The position numbers were made by a program, and so were the translations under genes. A model generated the notes under the pieces. That model worked only from the letters and a program-made list of their open reading frames with translations, did no database searches and was not told the DNA's origin. Below, in pieces: positions 1 to 6,203 of a stretch of DNA of 15,142 nucleotides (its first letter is position 1; the number at the start of each line of letters is the position of its first letter). The stretch spans positions 121,999 to 137,140 of the forward strand of contig DDQZ01000078.1 in NCBI GenBank assembly GCA_002343505.1, written 5' to 3'. This DNA is from Verrucomicrobiaceae bacterium UBA2429. Its GTDB lineage: Bacteria > Verrucomicrobiota > Verrucomicrobiia > Verrucomicrobiales > Verrucomicrobiaceae.

Positions 1-1
1 T

Positions 2-127
2 GAGCCGGGGAACTCCCCCGACGGGCGGGGGGCCCCCCCCGATGAGCGGGGGAACTCCCCCGACGGGCGGGGGGCCACCCCCGGTGAGCCGGGGAACTCC
101 CCCGACGAGCGGGGGGCCACCCCCGGA
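2..127. repeat. Three 42-bp GC-rich tandem repeats at the left edge
   Basis: Units start at 2, 44 and 86, exactly 42 bp each, and differ at only a few positions. Each unit contains two runs that can fold on themselves: a GGGGG-AACT-CCCCC type hairpin and a GGGGGG-CCA-CCCCC type hairpin. The array may continue to the left of the window. Because 42 is a multiple of three, both strands stay open through it and would read as 14-residue Gly/Pro-rich repeats, but no start, ribosome site or conserved domain supports translation. The array lies about 230 bp past the stop of the minus-strand NTPase gene, so it reads as intergenic. Confidence 0.9.
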
Positions 128-356: not shown

Positions 357-2836
357 TCACCAGCTCCCCGACGCCGCCTCCGCATCCGCCAGCTCCTCGG
401 CGCGGCGGCCGTAGCCGTGGTGCTTGATGAGGGCGCGGGCTTTGGCCAGTTCCGCCTTCGGGTCAATGCCGGGGTAGGCTTTCAGCCTTCTGCCTTCATC
501 CTTCACACTTCCCGCGAGGCGGGCGCGGTGCAGGTGGACATCGGCCAGATAAAGCGGCATCGGCCCGCGCTCGGCGATCTGCTGGGCCTCGTCCAGGCAG
601 CGGAGGGCGGCGGCGCTGTCGCCCAGGAAGTGATGATGCAGCGCGGCGGTGAGCAGGGCGCGGGGGAGCATCCATGTGTCGCCCGATTTGCGGAGGCCGT
701 CGAGGGCTTCGTGCAGGTGGGGGTTCGTGTAGGTGGAGGCGGGCGCGCCCTCCAGCACCGCGCGGTAGAGCGCCACCCGCGCCAGGGTCAGGTGGTCCAG
801 GGCGATGTCGAGGAGGCTAGGCTTGTTGGTGAAGATTTCACGCCAAGCGCGTTGAGCTTCAGTGGCCCGCCGTTCGGCCTCGGCGAGGGCAAAGTAGTCC
901 TCTCGCTCCGCGAGAGGAACAGGGGACTCCACTGCCTCATCGGGCTTCGAACATTCGGAAGTCGCACCTGACAGCGAAGCGCCAGACTCATCTCTCGGAG
1001 AGAGATGACAACGGTACGCCGCGCGCTCGGCGGGGGCCAGGATCAGGTCGCAGTAACGGAAGCCTGCCACGGAGTAGAGCAGGGGGAACTCGGGCTGGCG
1101 CTCGCGCTGGAGCGTCTCCGCCTGCTCGAAGAGACCCCGCGCCTCCGCCCGCTGCCCGCTCTGGTGCAGGGCATCGGCGGCGGTGGTGCGCTTGCTCATG
1201 CGCTGAAACGCATCCCCGCTCTGGTCGGCGAACTCGATGGCGCGCCGGGCCGTGGCCACCGCCTCCCCCAGCAGGCCCAGCGTCACTTCCAGCTCGCTGA
1301 GGTTGCTGGCGCTGATGGCGGCAGCTTTCCAGTTTTCGGCTTTAGCGTAGTTTTCCAGCCCCGCCCGCATCGGCTCCCGCGCTTCGGTGAGGCGGCCGAG
1401 GGCGCGGAGGTAGAACGCGGCTTGATTGAGCAGCCAGGCCTGATCGGGTTCGCTGAGATTCGGGGAGAGGCGGCTCCAGGGCGGGTCAAAGAAGGCCGCC
1501 ACCGCCCCCAGGTCCGCGCCGATGGCTCCGAGTTTCTTCGTGCTGTAGGACTCGCCGCCGCGGAGGATGCGGTCGAAGTAAACCCTGTCACACGCCTCCT
1601 GCTGCCGCCCGGCCAGGCAGCCGTGGACCACGGCCTGGTAGAGCGGCTGGAGGCCCTCCAGGGTCTCGGGCCGGTGCTCGGTGCTCTGGCACAGATGCTC
1701 AAACAACCGCGAGTGCGCCGCTTGGAATGCCTCCGGCTGCCGCTCCCGCAGTTGCTTGGCGAAGTATTCGCGGATGAGCGGGTGGGCATCGAGGGTCACC
1801 TGGCATGGCTCGGGGCGCGGGGCGAAACTTCCCGCCACCACCGGCGGGAAGCGGAGCTGGATGAGGTGGGCCTCGTGCAGGCGCAGCAGCACGGCATTCC
1901 AGGCGTCGTCATTCAGCGGCACGAGGGCGTCGGTGAGGCCGGGGATGGCGGGGGCGCGGCGCAGGGCGGCCAGACAGTCGGCGCTGGCCGGGCGGTCGAA
2001 CAGGCCGGTGAGGCGCAGGGCCTGGACATCGGTGGCGTGGCCCTGGGGGGAGGCCAGCCACTGCTCATAGGCCTCCAGGATGTGCCATGCATTGCGGGTG
2101 ATGCGCTGGTTGCGGTTGTCATTGGCGCGTTCGAGCTTGAGCTGGCTGCGCAGGCGGATGTCGCCGCCTTTGACGAAGAGGAAGCGGCCGAGCACGATGA
2201 GGCTGAGGGCGTGGCAGAAGTAGTCGGTGGCGGCCTGCTGGAGTTCTTCCTCCGTGCCGGTGATCTGCATTTTCCGCAGGAGGGAGACGGCGCACTCCAG
2301 CGGCAGCTCCTCCAGATCATGCTGGCGGGTGGGGCTGGTGCCGGCGCTGGGGAGGTCGGTGAGGGGCTGGCGGCTGGAGATGAGGCAGAGGCCGGGGTTG
2401 CGCTGGGCCAGCAGGCCGAGCAGCTCGCACAGGTCGGGATCGGTGAGCTGGCCGGCCTGGGGGTGGTTGGGCGGGTATTGCAGGGGCTCCAGGCCATCGA
2501 GGATGAGCAGGCTGCGCTGCGCCTGGAGGTGCCGGGCGAGGCGGGCGGCCTTTTTCTCCGGGTTCTCCGGCTCGGGATCGCCGAAGTGCTCCAGGGCTTT
2601 CTGGAAGAAGCTGCCGAGGCTGGCGGCGCCGGCGTGGGTGGCGTCGTCACCACGGGTGCCCTGGTCGTAGAAGGTCCAGTCGAAATAGGCGAGCGGGTCG
2701 GGCTGGCCTTTGGCATTGAGCCAGCCTTTTTCCGTGAAGCGGCTGCGCACCCAATACGCCAGCAGGGCGGTCTTCCCCACGCCGCCCCAGGCGATGATGG
2801 AGAGGAGGTTGGTGGTTCCTGGTTCTGGGCTGGGGG
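357..2836 (-). CDS. STAND NTPase with TPR repeats (C-terminal part of the frameshifted DUF4062-NTPase-TPR gene)
   Basis: This is the larger part of one gene whose N-terminal part lies at 2837-3532 in another frame. Restoring one base near 2832-2836 gives a protein of about 1058 residues. In that joined numbering the part opens with a Walker A loop (IIAWGGVGKTALL, about 245-258). It continues with an FDWTFYDQGT block, a Walker B strand (LLILDGLEP, about 342-350), the NPGLCLISSR strand, a winged-helix-like stretch with LTGLFDRPAS, and DAHPLIREYF (about 582-591). From about 600 to the end it is helical and rich in Ala, Leu and Glu, as expected for TPR repeats. This order is that of STAND/NB-ARC-type NTPases, which oligomerise on sensing a trigger. 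The frame has no ATG, GTG or TTG upstream of a GTG inside the Walker A loop itself, so it cannot make a working NTPase alone. Two odd insertions (482-509 and 898-1008) are listed separately. A role in phage defence or signalling is inference. Confidence 0.85.
482..509. repeat. Degenerate heptanucleotide tandem repeat inside the NTPase-TPR gene
   Basis: On the plus strand there are four consecutive 7-nt units: TCAGCCT, TCTGCCT, TCATCCT, TCACACT. The stretch is poorer in GC than its surroundings and encodes the basic piece around VKDEGRRLKAYPG near the C-terminus of the TPR protein, between two helical stretches. Short heptamer arrays of this look are known in some bacterial genomes, for example cyanobacteria. 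Here the array looks like an expansion or insertion within a loop. Confidence 0.7.
898..1008. repeat. 111-bp element bounded by two perfect hairpins, inserted in frame in the TPR region
   Basis: The left hairpin (898-918) has an 8-bp stem, TCCTCTCG/CGAGAGGA, with a 5-nt loop. The right hairpin (988-1008) has a 9-bp stem, TCATCTCTC/GAGAGATGA, with a GGA loop. Both share the CTCTCG core. The outer span is 111 bp, or 37 codons, so the frame is kept. In the protein it gives a Ser/Pro/Glu-rich stretch from LSPRDESG to PLAERED, between YCDLILAPAERAAYRCH and YFALAEAERR. Many of its codons end in A or T, unlike the surrounding gene. It resembles palindromic REP/BIME-like or RPE-like elements that insert in genes. 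No family name can be given from this sequence alone. Confidence 0.65.
2832..2836 (-). other. Probable site of a single-base frame change in the DUF4062-STAND gene
   Basis: A run of five C on the minus strand (five G on plus) sits where the DUF4062 frame must hand over to the NTPase frame. Upstream, the coding frame reads FLGRDKELALLDDAWNPPP. Downstream, the neighbouring frame reads NLLSIIAWGGVGKTALL. Adding one C to this run joins them smoothly as DDAWNPPPSPEPGTTNLLS. The two frames both stay open for hundreds of bases, so the exact position is only bounded to about 2800-2840. The heptamer G CCC CCA here is not a canonical slippery site. Confidence 0.7.
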
Positions 2837-3532
2837 CGGGTTCCAGGCGTCGTCGAGCAGGGCGAGTTCCTTGTCGCGCCCGAGGAAGTCGGCGGCGGTG
2901 TGGCGGCTGATGAGGCGGGTGGTGGCGATGCGCTGCGGGGGCTGCTGGGCGGGGAGGATGGCCTTCAGCGCGCGCAGCACGGCGATGGAGAGGTCGCGGT
3001 CATCGGTGAAGGTGATCTCGGAATAAAAGCCGCGTTGTTGCAGCTCCTTCTCATGCCAGGCCTGGGAGAGCTTTTGCGCATGAGCAGTGGCGGCATCGGC
3101 GGGGTGGTCGGGAACAAACGCAGAAGAGGGCGTCGCGACGATGAGCTTTAGTTCGGGGCGCTTTGTCTTGCGGTGGTAGAAGGCCAGCCAGGCTTCCCAT
3201 TGGGTGTAGGAGAGGGTGCGAAGTTCCGCGTCACCCAGCCCGACGACGCCGGGAAGGTCCGCGTGACGCTTCAGGAGGTCATCCACCGCTTCTTTGCCGG
3301 CCACCCTGCCGTCCTTGCTGGTCTGCCGGCCGATGAGATGAATCACCGCATCACACTGGGCGATGTAGTCGTCCAGCTTGATGAGGATGGTCTGGCCTGA
3401 GGCGAGAGCGGAGACGTTTTGCTCCTGCGTCTGCACATCCACATCGGGAAAGCGGAGATCGGTGGCGAGCCGCTCACGGCAGGTGAGGAACTCATGACTG
3501 ACTGTGGAGATGAAGATGCGGCAGTGTGGCAT
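2837..3532 (-). CDS. DUF4062 domain (N-terminal part of the frameshifted DUF4062-STAND NTPase-TPR gene)
   Basis: The first 170 or so residues match the DUF4062 pattern, a Rossmann-like fold related to TIR domains: CRIFISTVSHEFLTCRERL at the start, then DVDVQTQEQ, a KLDDYIAQCDAVIHLIG strand, a SYTQWEAWLAFYHRK helix and KLIVATPS. A linker follows, ending in FLGRDKELALLDDAW, the usual lead-in to a STAND NTPase. I chose ATG 3532 because the domain begins at once after it (MPHCRIFIS). A GTG ten codons upstream at 3562 is possible, and neither has a clear Shine-Dalgarno. The start overlaps the 3' end of the small membrane-protein gene by 41 bp, suggesting an operon with coupled translation. Without the frame change at about 2832-2836 the reading would run on as low-complexity Pro/Ser/Ala sequence to 1913, which is not a real protein end. 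Confidence 0.8.
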
Positions 3533-4054
3533 GGCGGCGGGAGGGAACGTTGCGACCGGCACGCTTCACGCCGGCGAAGCTGCGGCGGGCGTGCCAGTTG
3601 ACGGTCTCGCCCAGGAGGCGGCTTTCGGTCTCGATGAGGAGTTTGGCGAACTCGCGCGCGGTGGCGGCGCTTTCCAGCAGGCCGGTCTGGCGCTCCAGGA
3701 AGGCGACCCTTTCCTCGGAGGTGTGCTTTTTGGCCTCCAGGTCAAAGGCGGCGGCCAGGGACAGGGCGGCGACGGCGATCACGGGATAGATGATGGCGAA
3801 GCAGCCGAGGATGGCGACAGAGGGCTCTTTGATGCCGCCGGGCACAGGCAGGCAGCCGCACTGGGTCAGCAGCTTCGCCAGCGTGCCAGGGACTGCGAGT
3901 GGTGGAGGCGGACACGCCCACCCTGCTGCGCGTGCGCGACCATGTGCCCCAGGCGCCAGGCGTGCGCCGCTTCATGCGCCTGCGCGTGCAGCGTTGAAAG
4001 CAGCGGGCATTTTCTCCAGCCTTCACACGGCTTCCGGCAAATCCGCCCTGGCAA
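3492..4054 (-). pseudogene. Small membrane protein, SLATT/DUF4231-like (tentative), frameshifted
   Basis: The clear part is the 3' half. One strong membrane segment (SVAILGCFAIIYPVIAVAAL and onward) is followed by a charged helical tail (FDLEAKKHTSEERVAFLE, then FAKLLIETESRLLGETVNW). A membrane segment followed by such a tail, ending in Glu-rich then Trp, recalls SLATT/DUF4231 proteins, membrane partners in bacterial conflict systems. That assignment is from general resemblance only. Upstream of about 3884 the coding signal (G/C at third positions) moves to the next frame, which reads LLSTLHAQAHEAAHAWRLGHM and AHAQQGGRVRLHHSQSLA. The two halves join as HHSQSLATLAKLLTQCGCLP if one base is restored. 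The start is unresolved: candidate TTG codons lie at 4054, 4075 and 4114 and an ATG at 3943, none with a good ribosome site. It lies directly upstream of, and overlaps, the DUF4062-STAND gene. Confidence 0.45.
3878..3892 (-). other. Probable single-base frame change in the small membrane-protein gene
   Basis: On the minus strand the codons before about 3884 have G/C-rich third positions in the frame that ends HHSQSLA and then meets a TGA at 3866. From about 3884 the G/C-rich third positions are in the frame reading TLAKLLTQCGCLP. The switch is of the same kind as at 2832-2836 (one base missing, or a -1 shift). There is no homopolymer and no slippery heptamer here. Confidence 0.55.
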
Positions 4055-4084
4055 AAACGCCGCCGTCCGCTTCAATGGCTCATC

Positions 4085-5068
4085 ATGCCCGAGACTGTGA
4101 AAAGCGCGTTCCAAAGCCGGCCCGACGGCTGGGCGCTCGTGCGGCGGAACCGGCCCGCGATGGTCTCGCTCGTTTTTCTCGGCTTCGTGGTGCTGGCCGC
4201 CTTTGCTGTTCCGCTGCTGCTGCCAGACGGACTCAAAGGCACCGGCGAGGGCGTCTTTCTGCCTCCTTTCTCACCCGCTCCTGGCGGCGGCGTGCATTTG
4301 TGCGGCACCGACAACAACGGCCAGGACCTTTTTTTCCGGCTGCTCACCGGCGCGCGGGTCTCCCTCGGTGTCGGCATCATCGGCGCGCTCATCTCCCTGT
4401 GCATCGGCACGGTGTGGGGCATGGTCAGCGGTTTCTGCGGCGGCAGGGTGGACGCCTTGATGATGCGCGTGGTGGACATGCTGTATGCCGTGCCCCGAAT
4501 CCTCTTCATCATGATTTTCATCGCCGCCTTTGACAGCGTGTGCAAGGACTGGCTGGACGCGCTGCGGCTGCGCGCGCAGGAAGCGGGCTGGGCCGGTGTC
4601 GAGGGAGCCGCGCGGCAGTTGATCCCGTATTCGAAAATTCTCGTCATGATCCTCTCCCTGGGCCTCGTCGAGTGGCTGACGATGGCGCGCATCATCCGCG
4701 GCCAGGTGCTGGTGCTCAGGGAGACGGCGTTCGTGACCGCCGCGCGCGCTTTGGGGCAGAGCCGCGCCTCCATTCTTCGGAGGCACCTGCTGCCCAATCT
4801 GAGCACCCTCATTCTCACCTACCTCACCCTGACCATCCCGGCGGTGATCCTGGACGAGTCCTTCCTCAGTTTTCTCGGCCTCGGCATCGAGGACCCGGCG
4901 GCAAGCTGGGGTTCCCTGCTCAAGGATGGCGCGCAGGTCATCAACCCCTTCGAGAGCAAATGGTGGCTGCTGGCCTTCCCCGCCGCGCTCATGTCCCTGA
5001 GCTTGCTGGCGCTCAATTTTCTCGGCGACGGACTGCGAGACGCCTTCGATCCGAAGTCCGGGGACTGA
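4085..5068 (+). CDS. ABC transporter permease, OppC/DppC type (peptide/nickel family)
   Basis: An inner-membrane subunit of a binding-protein-dependent importer of the peptide/nickel class (327 aa). Visible features are an N-terminal cytoplasmic stretch and first membrane helix (VSLVFLGFVVLAAFAVPLLL, about 21-40), the family motif LCGTDNNGQDLFFRLLTGAR (about 76-95), helices with SLGVGIIGALISLCIGTVWG, and the EAA loop that contacts the ATPase (TAARALGQSRASILRRHLLPN, about 218-238). A DESFLSFLGLGIEDPAASWG block and a last helix (WLLAFPAALMSLSLLALNFL) follow. Between the third helix and the EAA region there is an extra stretch of about 35 residues (around KDWLDALRLRAQEAGWAG) not found in typical OppC. 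ATG 4085 gives the usual OppC N-terminus; no Shine-Dalgarno is seen. No OppB, ATPase or binding protein is present in the window, so this subunit is isolated. The substrate cannot be told. Confidence 0.9.
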   Translation: MPETVKSAFQSRPDGWALVRRNRPAMVSLVFLGFVVLAAFAVPLLLPDGLKGTGEGVFLPPFSPAPGGGVHLCGTDNNGQDLFFRLLTGARVSLGVGIIGALISLCIGTVWGMVSGFCGGRVDALMMRVVDMLYAVPRILFIMIFIAAFDSVCKDWLDALRLRAQEAGWAGVEGAARQLIPYSKILVMILSLGLVEWLTMARIIRGQVLVLRETAFVTAARALGQSRASILRRHLLPNLSTLILTYLTLTIPAVILDESFLSFLGLGIEDPAASWGSLLKDGAQVINPFESKWWLLAFPAALMSLSLLALNFLGDGLRDAFDPKSGD

Positions 5069-5081
5069 GAGGGCGCCAAGA

Positions 5082-6203
5082 TTATTTCATCATCTCACCG
5101 AGGCGCACCAAAGCACGGCCCAGTTTTGACTTCGGACGGCGCGCATGAGTCTGAAGCAGCACTTTGACAAGTGCGGCCAGCATTTCCCCAGTCGCCGGCG
5201 CGGACGCGATCCCGGCGTCCTCTTCGGGCAAGAATTCAAAAAGCCGCCCGGTAGTGTCGCCAAAATAGTCGCGCGCCACCAGCGCGTTGGACGCCTCATG
5301 CCGCGCCAGAAGGGAGGCGCGCGCCGGTCCGTCCATGTGCGAGTAGCTTTCATGCGGCTTCTTCGGGATGGAGGCCTGCAGGACGCGCCGCATCTCCCGC
5401 CTTTCCTCGGTGCCGAGGTGCGAGTTGCACTGCCGGGCGATCTCCGCCGCGATCCGGCTGTAGCCGGCGTTGGGGGCGGCATCACCCTGCCTCAATTCCA
5501 GCCCCGCATGACCGGCGCCGGTGATCTCGAAGAAGTCCTCCAGCAGGCTCTCACGCCTTGGCATGAAGCGCTTTTCGTAGCGCCGGACGATGATGTTTTC
5601 ACGTCCGAAAACCTCCGCGTAGCTCTCCAGCAGCGCGTGCCAGTCGAAGACGAGGCCTGAAATCTGGTCGAGGAACTCCTCAAAGGTCAAAGTGTGCCCC
5701 TCATGAATCTTCTGGGTGTAGAGAGACTCGATGAACTCGTCCTGGCGCCTGATGTAAACAAGAACCGTGACCTTGTAACCGGCGGTGCAGCTCCTCATTC
5801 TGCGCGCGAAGTCGGGCGCGTTCCGATAGCCCAGAAGAGGGTCGCCGCACAGACCCTCGTTGCTCACCACAAGCGAGGATGCCTTTGCCGTGCGGAAGGC
5901 GGCAAGCTGGCCGGCGATCCGCGCGCAGAGGGAGGCGTCCATCTCCCCGAGTTCGAGCATGGCGCGCAGGGCGTCGTTGCACCTCGGCTGGGAGACGATG
6001 CCGCGCTTGTGGAGAGCCGCCCGGTTCTTGCGCAAAGCCCTCTGGATGGCCGTGCTGCCTGTCTTGTGAGTGCCGATGTGCAGCAGCAGGGAAGGTTCCC
6101 GGGCACTCTTGCGCGCCGCTTCGCGAAGCGCCGGAAGCCCCGCTTCGAGATCTGTTCCGATGTCACCCATCTGCTTTCTGGCCAGGGCCAAAGGTTTTTG
6201 CAT
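5082..6203 (-). CDS. PAPS-dependent sulfotransferase-family protein
   Basis: Transfers a sulfuryl group from PAPS to an acceptor, probably a carbohydrate or lipid, though the acceptor is unknown. The 5'-phosphosulfate loop is clear: LLLHIGTHKTGSTAIQ, with HIGTHKTGST at 42-51. The 3'-phosphate motif is VYIRRQDEFIESLYTQ at about 149-164, with the Arg pair at 152-153 and Ser160. Between them is LVVSNEGL (111-118). The length of 373 aa is normal for bacterial members. The ATG at 6203 gives about 38 residues before the P-loop; a second Met at residue 12 is possible, and neither has a good ribosome site. The gene converges with the permease, with only 13 bp between the stops. It follows glpK on the same strand after a 95-bp gap, with no evident functional link. 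Confidence 0.85.
   Translation of the reverse strand: MQKPLALARKQMGDIGTDLEAGLPALREAARKSAREPSLLLHIGTHKTGSTAIQRALRKNRAALHKRGIVSQPRCNDALRAMLELGEMDASLCARIAGQLAAFRTAKASSLVVSNEGLCGDPLLGYRNAPDFARRMRSCTAGYKVTVLVYIRRQDEFIESLYTQKIHEGHTLTFEEFLDQISGLVFDWHALLESYAEVFGRENIIVRRYEKRFMPRRESLLEDFFEITGAGHAGLELRQGDAAPNAGYSRIAAEIARQCNSHLGTEERREMRRVLQASIPKKPHESYSHMDGPARASLLARHEASNALVARDYFGDTTGRLFEFLPEEDAGIASAPATGEMLAALVKVLLQTHARRPKSKLGRALVRLGEMMK

Follow-up and report, generated by a model that had tools for sequence, protein, structure and literature searches.

Does a gene pair that resembles a bacterial anti-phage or conflict module still encode a working system, and did its two genes ever belong together? We addressed this question for a 15,142-nucleotide stretch of Verrucomicrobiaceae bacterium UBA2429 (assembly GCA_002343505.1, contig DDQZ01000078.1, positions 121,999 to 137,140), hereafter the window. 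A preliminary description of the sequence had proposed a working two-gene module, in which a small membrane protein with a SLATT-like layout overlaps by 41 bp the gene for one large protein joining a TIR-like DUF4062 domain, a STAND NTPase, and a TPR-type region. We find that the NTPase gene is frame-broken and the membrane gene truncated, so that the window holds no intact two-gene module. With a probability of about 0.6, we read the locus as a TIR-like conflict module that has decayed, and the copy in this genome is probably inactive. Intact relatives elsewhere suggest that the window contains not a working new system but the decayed form of anti-phage alarm systems of known kinds. We infer that the module most likely consisted of a TIR-like NADase once paired with a sensor/pore of the ADP-ribose type.

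State of the two genes

The DUF4062 part and the NTPase/TPR part lie in different frames of the minus strand (open reading frames [ORFs] 1913-3562 and 357-2780, respectively), and three-frame translation showed that homology switches between them ahead of the P-loop (Table 1). In the continuous relative P0014, residues 1 to 239 match the DUF4062 frame at 94% and residues 234 to 856 match the NTPase frame at 90%, which places the frame change within the short linker preceding the P-loop. No single continuous frame for a DUF4062-STAND-TPR gene was detected in the window, and the single large protein proposed earlier was not confirmed. A programmed frameshift was rejected because P0014, the closest relative, is continuous, and a dispersed genomic repeat in the linker was ruled out because the 14-base pattern concerned was found only once in the UBA2429 genome. 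In the homologue listing, the 807-residue NTPase ORF is one sequence from five contigs; if these contigs are independent, this argues against a one-off assembly slip. A working NTPase made from the second frame alone is unlikely on sequence grounds, since the product of an internal start at the GTG of GVGKT would be missing the beginning of the P-loop. Starts at this GTG follow from codon availability, and an on/off switch by frame breaks was set aside on that ground.

The NTPase search scored 7998 candidates, of which 5663 qualified as homologues at E ≤ 1e-3. In 108 of the 120 hits listed, the P-loop and at least 100 preceding residues share one frame; these continuous hits have lengths of 845 to 1,381 (67 of them 1,000 to 1,150). 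At L009, the gene runs in one uninterrupted frame of about 1,034 residues. A second frame-broken member of the family, 71% identical, occurs at L008, with its break near the P-loop (L008:8700-8730).

The small ORF (3492-3845) corresponds to the C-terminal end of the SLOG-SLATT protein P0137 (residues 430 to 539 of 540; 73% identity, E = 1e-40, tblastn), its best match among 89 family members, 88 of which match the window piece. The SLATT link and the existence of homologues are thus upheld, but the gene is not intact. Strong relatives in whole genomes have open frames of 541 to 614 codons, and the window gene, which lacks the first ~430 residues and the natural stop, does not encode the SLOG domain plus SLATT helical membrane module of ~540 residues. 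A small standalone SLATT gene was rejected, the ORF being the C-terminal piece of a longer protein whose relatives are full-length. Whereas 83 of the 89 members end 6 residues after the WxxRR motif, the window ORF continues for 29. The 41-bp overlap is real (stop at 3492, ATG at 3532, minus strand) and arises because the natural stop was lost and the ORF runs on; as a by-product of that loss, it was rejected as a sign of translational coupling. The missing N-terminal part was not found, which is weak evidence, in the three own-genome stretches examined besides the window; own-genome searches with full-length relatives scored three candidates and left the remnant itself unreported at the thresholds used. 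The window is GC-rich and, counting real genes, has 62 stop-to-stop frames of 117 codons or more; the homologies of its ORFs are far beyond chance, which their length alone is not.

We attribute the truncation of the SLOG-SLATT gene to a rearrangement whose likely junction lies at 3897 to 4085, where the remnant gives way to oppC. In three relatives (L136, L137, and L138, from G017, G159, and G008), oppB directly precedes oppC; oppB is absent from this position in the window, and the closest own-genome match to that oppB (79%) lies on another contig (C12:82313-83227, G000). A simple empty insertion site was rejected, as in the relatives examined oppC is separated from the kinase gene that the window has downstream of the NTPase gene. 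The window also carries an extra ORF between oppC and glpK (5082-6203, minus strand), which is without a Pfam match and which we take, by eye, to be sulfotransferase-like (LHIGTHKTGSTAIQ); it is absent from L137, where oppC adjoins glpK.

Table 1. Features of the locus, in window positions
Feature	Position	Strand	Basis or remark
TPR-like block 2	570..719	-	PF12862 and PF13181, residues 704-753; weak
TPR block 1	1089..1442	-	PF13424 and PF17874, residues 463-580 of window:360-2828:-
STAND/NACHT-type NTPase and TPR region, second frame (called as 807-residue ORF 357-2780)	360..2828	-	Pfam; homologues
Walker B, SLLILDGLEP (LLILDGLEP)	2484..2513	-	translation
Walker A, GGVGKT	2769..2786	-	translation
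Frame-change zone, DUF4062 frame to NTPase frame	2803..2840	-	three-frame translation; P0014 continuous here
DUF4062 (TIR-like) effector part and following linker	2803..3532	-	start ATG 3532
Candidate catalytic Glu, residue 113, SYTQWE motif	codon 3194-3196	-	
Run-on beyond the family's usual end	3492..3566	-	makes 41-bp overlap with DUF4062 start
3' remnant of SLOG-SLATT gene, last ~110 of ~540 residues	3567..3896	-	tblastn P0137
Likely rearrangement junction, remnant/oppC; oppB absent here	3897..4084	.	oppB-oppC adjacency in relatives

Domains of the large gene

The domains assigned to the large gene in the preliminary description held up, for DUF4062 with a sub-threshold Pfam match. PF13271 (DUF4062) matched residues 5 to 69 of the window protein with 20.1 bits (E = 7.7e-4), short of its 24.7-bit cut-off. 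In alignment A1, to which the window belongs, 28 of 30 members gave a PF13271 match at E ≤ 0.01. The DUF4062 part showed a TIR-like fold in a model that includes linker residues at its low-confidence end. According to the available text of a 2026 preprint (PMC13174449), DUF4062 proteins are NADases that protect Escherichia coli against phage, an activity that depends on a conserved glutamate. Among hits obtained with the NTPase part alone, the corresponding candidate here, E113 in the SxTQxE motif, was present in all 80 alignment rows with a residue in that column, and 8 further rows were gapped. These alignments start from the NTPase part and rest on the 120 listed of 5663 hits; P0019 and P0077, among a few proteins with non-DUF4062 N termini, occupy the columns by alignment only. 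The relatives in A1 were gathered with patterns including SYTQWEAW, so that invariance there is biased. E113 is the presumed equivalent of E97 in the Swarozyc protein KpSwz.

The second frame contains a P-loop, a Walker B motif, NACHT/NB-ARC similarity, and TPRs, as in STAND/NACHT NTPases with TPRs. The NACHT match is weak in the window (E = 0.028) and exceeds the cut-off in one relative, L119; NACHT or NB-ARC remained under the cut-off in L009, L117, and L161. TPR_12 matched with E = 1.4e-6 (28.8 bits, slightly under the 30.1 cut-off). Other effectors are found on the same NTPase-TPR body: by precomputed Pfam assignments, 18 of 112 listed P-loop hits carry TIR/SEFIR domains and 6 carry trypsin-like domains. 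Comparison of the NTPase with solved structures (phmmer) gave no match at E ≤ 1, and at E ≤ 1e-60 the phylum-wide search matched the UBA2429 genome alone among 288. No relatives were found in the viral contigs scanned with the SLOG-SLATT alignment, P0021, and the NTPase, or in plasmids searched by tblastn with the NTPase and P0137.

Recurrence of the pair and likely function

Lack of a conserved association between the two genes had been set beforehand as grounds for refuting the pairing, and from the NTPase side none was found. Across 17 NTPase loci, tblastn with the 89 SLOG-SLATT proteins (E ≤ 1e-3) detected no membrane gene, whereas all 89 matched each of six control loci. These 17 loci represent 11 genomes or named contigs, with repeats: four come from G108, L122 and L126 are both from G131 and possibly the same gene, and L126 and L162 are without upstream DNA. 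The exact combination of DUF4062-STAND-TPR with SLATT is also without a confirmed second instance, and the class of partner varies. On the evidence of the 17 loci, the NTPase family is not dependent on the membrane gene. A hint of an intact second instance comes from the NTPase relative P0021 and the SLOG-SLATT relative P0153: for each, the longest contig measures 5,697 bases, and their sources overlap in lists compared by eye; however, P0220 and P0193 agree at 3,939 bases, too short for both genes, so such matches also arise by chance.

From the membrane side, the proposed partnership of a SLATT-type protein with a TIR-like effector held loosely: a TIR-like gene followed next on the same strand in 4 of 6 loci with a close full-length SLOG-SLATT gene (genomes G204, G093, G153, G444, G002, and G103). 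This count covers strong matches only, leaving out nine genomes at E = 1e-5 to 0.01 and nine at E = 1e-11 to 1e-20; five weaker SLATT-type loci (L079 and L081 to L084) are represented by ORF lists only. The partner is a 208-residue DUF4062 gene in L073 (E = 1.6e-9), a PF05014-like protein fused to prok_STING in L076 and L077 (STING E = 2.2e-10 and 1.4e-12), and a TIR-NB-ARC-TPR gene in L129 (TIR E = 1.6e-11; NB-ARC E = 8.4e-4, under the cut-off). Since L076 and L077 belong to one genus, these are three independent partner types. In L077, a DUF4062-TPR gene follows the STING fusion. L129 is the closest parallel to the window, with a TIR-TPR gene, the SLOG-SLATT gene, and the TIR-NB-ARC-TPR gene consecutive on one strand (L129:4218-12423). 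Neighbors in the other two loci, L074 and L075, appeared unrelated by eye. Because DUF4062 genes are few in the UBA2429 genome (seven matches, five above the cut-off), 4 of 6, in a small sample, is unlikely to reflect chance.

The STING fusions (L076:8286-9398, minus strand; L077:2331-3425, plus strand) join a nucleoside-deoxyribosyltransferase (NDT)-like domain (PF05014) to prokaryotic STING (PF20300) directly after the SLOG-SLATT gene. No cyclase gene was seen among their neighbors, most of which were judged by eye alone, and our literature search, from which subscription journals were mostly absent, found no description of bacterial STING with a deoxyribosyltransferase and CBASS. On contig C8 of the UBA2429 genome, an ORF that is TIR-like by eye comes after a region with a distant SLATT-type match (L084:7985-10897).

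In intact relatives, the TPR region would sense an infection cue, the NACHT-type ATPase would oligomerize, and the clustered TIR-like DUF4062 domains would cleave NAD+. In loci with a SLOG-SLATT partner, the SLOG domain of that partner may read an ADP-ribose-type product and its SLATT hairpins may open the membrane; in loci without one, NAD+ loss alone could stop both cell and phage. In the accessible portions of earlier comparative genomic work, YpsA-like clade SLOG domains include cyclic ADP-ribose sensors (PMC9503650), and SLATT proteins near TIR genes are predicted to be ADP-ribose-regulated membrane effectors (PMC9503650, PMC7159879). On this basis, the paired loci are best read as ones in which a TIR-like enzyme would supply a SLOG-SLATT pore. 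A bolder reading, less likely than not, is that TIR-like genes (DUF4062-STAND-TPR, NDT-like-STING, and TIR-NB-ARC-TPR) and SLOG-SLATT form a modular two-gene family in which the TIR-like enzyme makes an ADP-ribose-type signal and the SLOG-SLATT pore reads it, and of which the window is a DUF4062-STAND-TPR fossil.

If so, the family would be a membrane-acting counterpart of Thoeris, in which the TIR protein ThsB makes a cyclic ADP-ribose signal that the SLOG domain of ThsA reads (PMC9503650, available text). The mechanism may be similar to that of Thoeris: in the membrane-side loci, a TIR-like gene likewise adjoins a SLOG-bearing protein. However, that protein has SLATT hairpins and no sirtuin, and its partner is DUF4062, NDT-like-STING, or TIR-NB-ARC-TPR; the ThsB plus sirtuin-SLOG ThsA pair was not found, sirtuin being absent from the Pfam matches of the L077 and L073 SLOG-SLATT proteins. 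The paired loci fit the predicted role of SLATT as a nucleotide- or ADP-ribose-regulated membrane effector beside TIR, although the accessible parts of the two sources (PMC7159879, PMC9503650) do not name DUF4062 or NDT-like-STING partners, and the window copy is a remnant. Like Swarozyc, the large gene has a DUF4062 TIR-like effector with a conserved glutamate, with presumed NAD+ depletion and abortive infection; unlike KpSwz, whose own helix-turn-helix/winged auxiliary domain binds the phage portal (PMC13174449, available text), it continues into a STAND-TPR body, as Pfam shows for the window and its relatives. Human TEP1, NWD1, and NPHP3 share the architecture, with DUF4062 directly before a NACHT-type ATPase (same source); the window protein is bacterial, with a TPR-type C-terminal part.

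PADLOC 2.0.0 assigned no family to the DUF4062 and NTPase pieces at E ≤ 1, gave the small ORF only a weak DpdE match (E = 0.0075), and matched none of P0014, P0137, and the L009 gene at E ≤ 0.01. In Avs and related STAND defense proteins, an exchangeable N-terminal effector and a STAND ATPase are combined with a C-terminal sensor. The window family follows this sensor-ATPase-effector logic but differs in that no PADLOC model matched. In L077, PADLOC gave a weak TIR effector match for the STING gene (E = 0.002), a TPR model for the DUF4062-TPR gene (3.3e-10), and bSEFIR for the SEFIR gene that follows (5.4e-14). No description of DUF4062-STAND-TPR paired with SLOG-SLATT was found in the same literature search. 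The locus connects the recently described DUF4062 NADases with a large, effector-swapping bacterial NACHT-TPR family and with the SLOG-SLATT proteins that recur beside TIR-like genes. The prediction that SLATT is a membrane effector gated by an ADP-ribose signal (PMC9503650, accessible part) could be tested directly in intact relatives; the window is unsuitable, since both of its genes are damaged.

Several other explanations bear on whether the locus is a decayed module. It is conceivable, though less likely than not, that the SLATT remnant and the NTPase gene never formed one module and were brought together by chance at a site prone to rearrangement; the split oppB/oppC junction, the extra ORF between oppC and glpK, and the 17 NTPase loci devoid of a membrane gene are consistent with this, but order and strand fit the pattern of the four SLOG-SLATT loci, and the next gene in L129 is TIR-NB-ARC-TPR. 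We consider it doubtful that the NTPase gene is intact in the organism, serving as a one-gene DUF4062-STAND-TPR defense beside SLATT debris, with the frame change a sequencing or assembly error. The remainder of its frame stays open over 2.4 kb and closes with the family C terminus, P0014 and the 108 listed hits are continuous, and the NTPase loci do without the partner; yet the five contigs share one sequence, and the break in L008 indicates that breaks occur in the family.

That both genes work and are translationally coupled through the overlap is highly improbable. Overlap and gene order are real, and SLOG-SLATT genes tend to directly precede TIR-like genes, but the small ORF, a C-terminal piece, has neither N terminus nor natural stop, and the large gene is split over two frames. 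DUF4062 might instead have no enzymatic role and serve for oligomerization or as an adaptor, which is conceivable for NWD1 and NPHP3, with the NTPase signaling by scaffolding. The DUF4062-NACHT proteins NWD1, NWD2, and NPHP3 were inactive in the preprint (PMC13174449, available text); the invariant glutamate argues the other way, and we regard this alternative as unlikely. We retain the decayed TIR-like conflict module as the preferred reading.

Variable regions and neighboring sequence

Additional observations concern the NTPase family and its flanks. In the TPR part, the loop after the LAPAER motif (from about window position 1017 downwards) is very variable in length and composition, and the reading frame stops at this loop in P0036, P0038, P0055, and P0086, on contigs of 33 to 292 kb. 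The precomputed domains of the relative P0030 include an IS200-type transposase domain (PF01797). Judged by eye, the cluster at L009:5609-16162 comprises a patatin-like gene, a TIR fragment, the DUF4062-STAND gene, and a large gene with a TIR-like start. Just beyond the 3' end of the NTPase gene, window positions 1-126 hold a GC-rich 42-base tandem repeat in three copies (94% matches).

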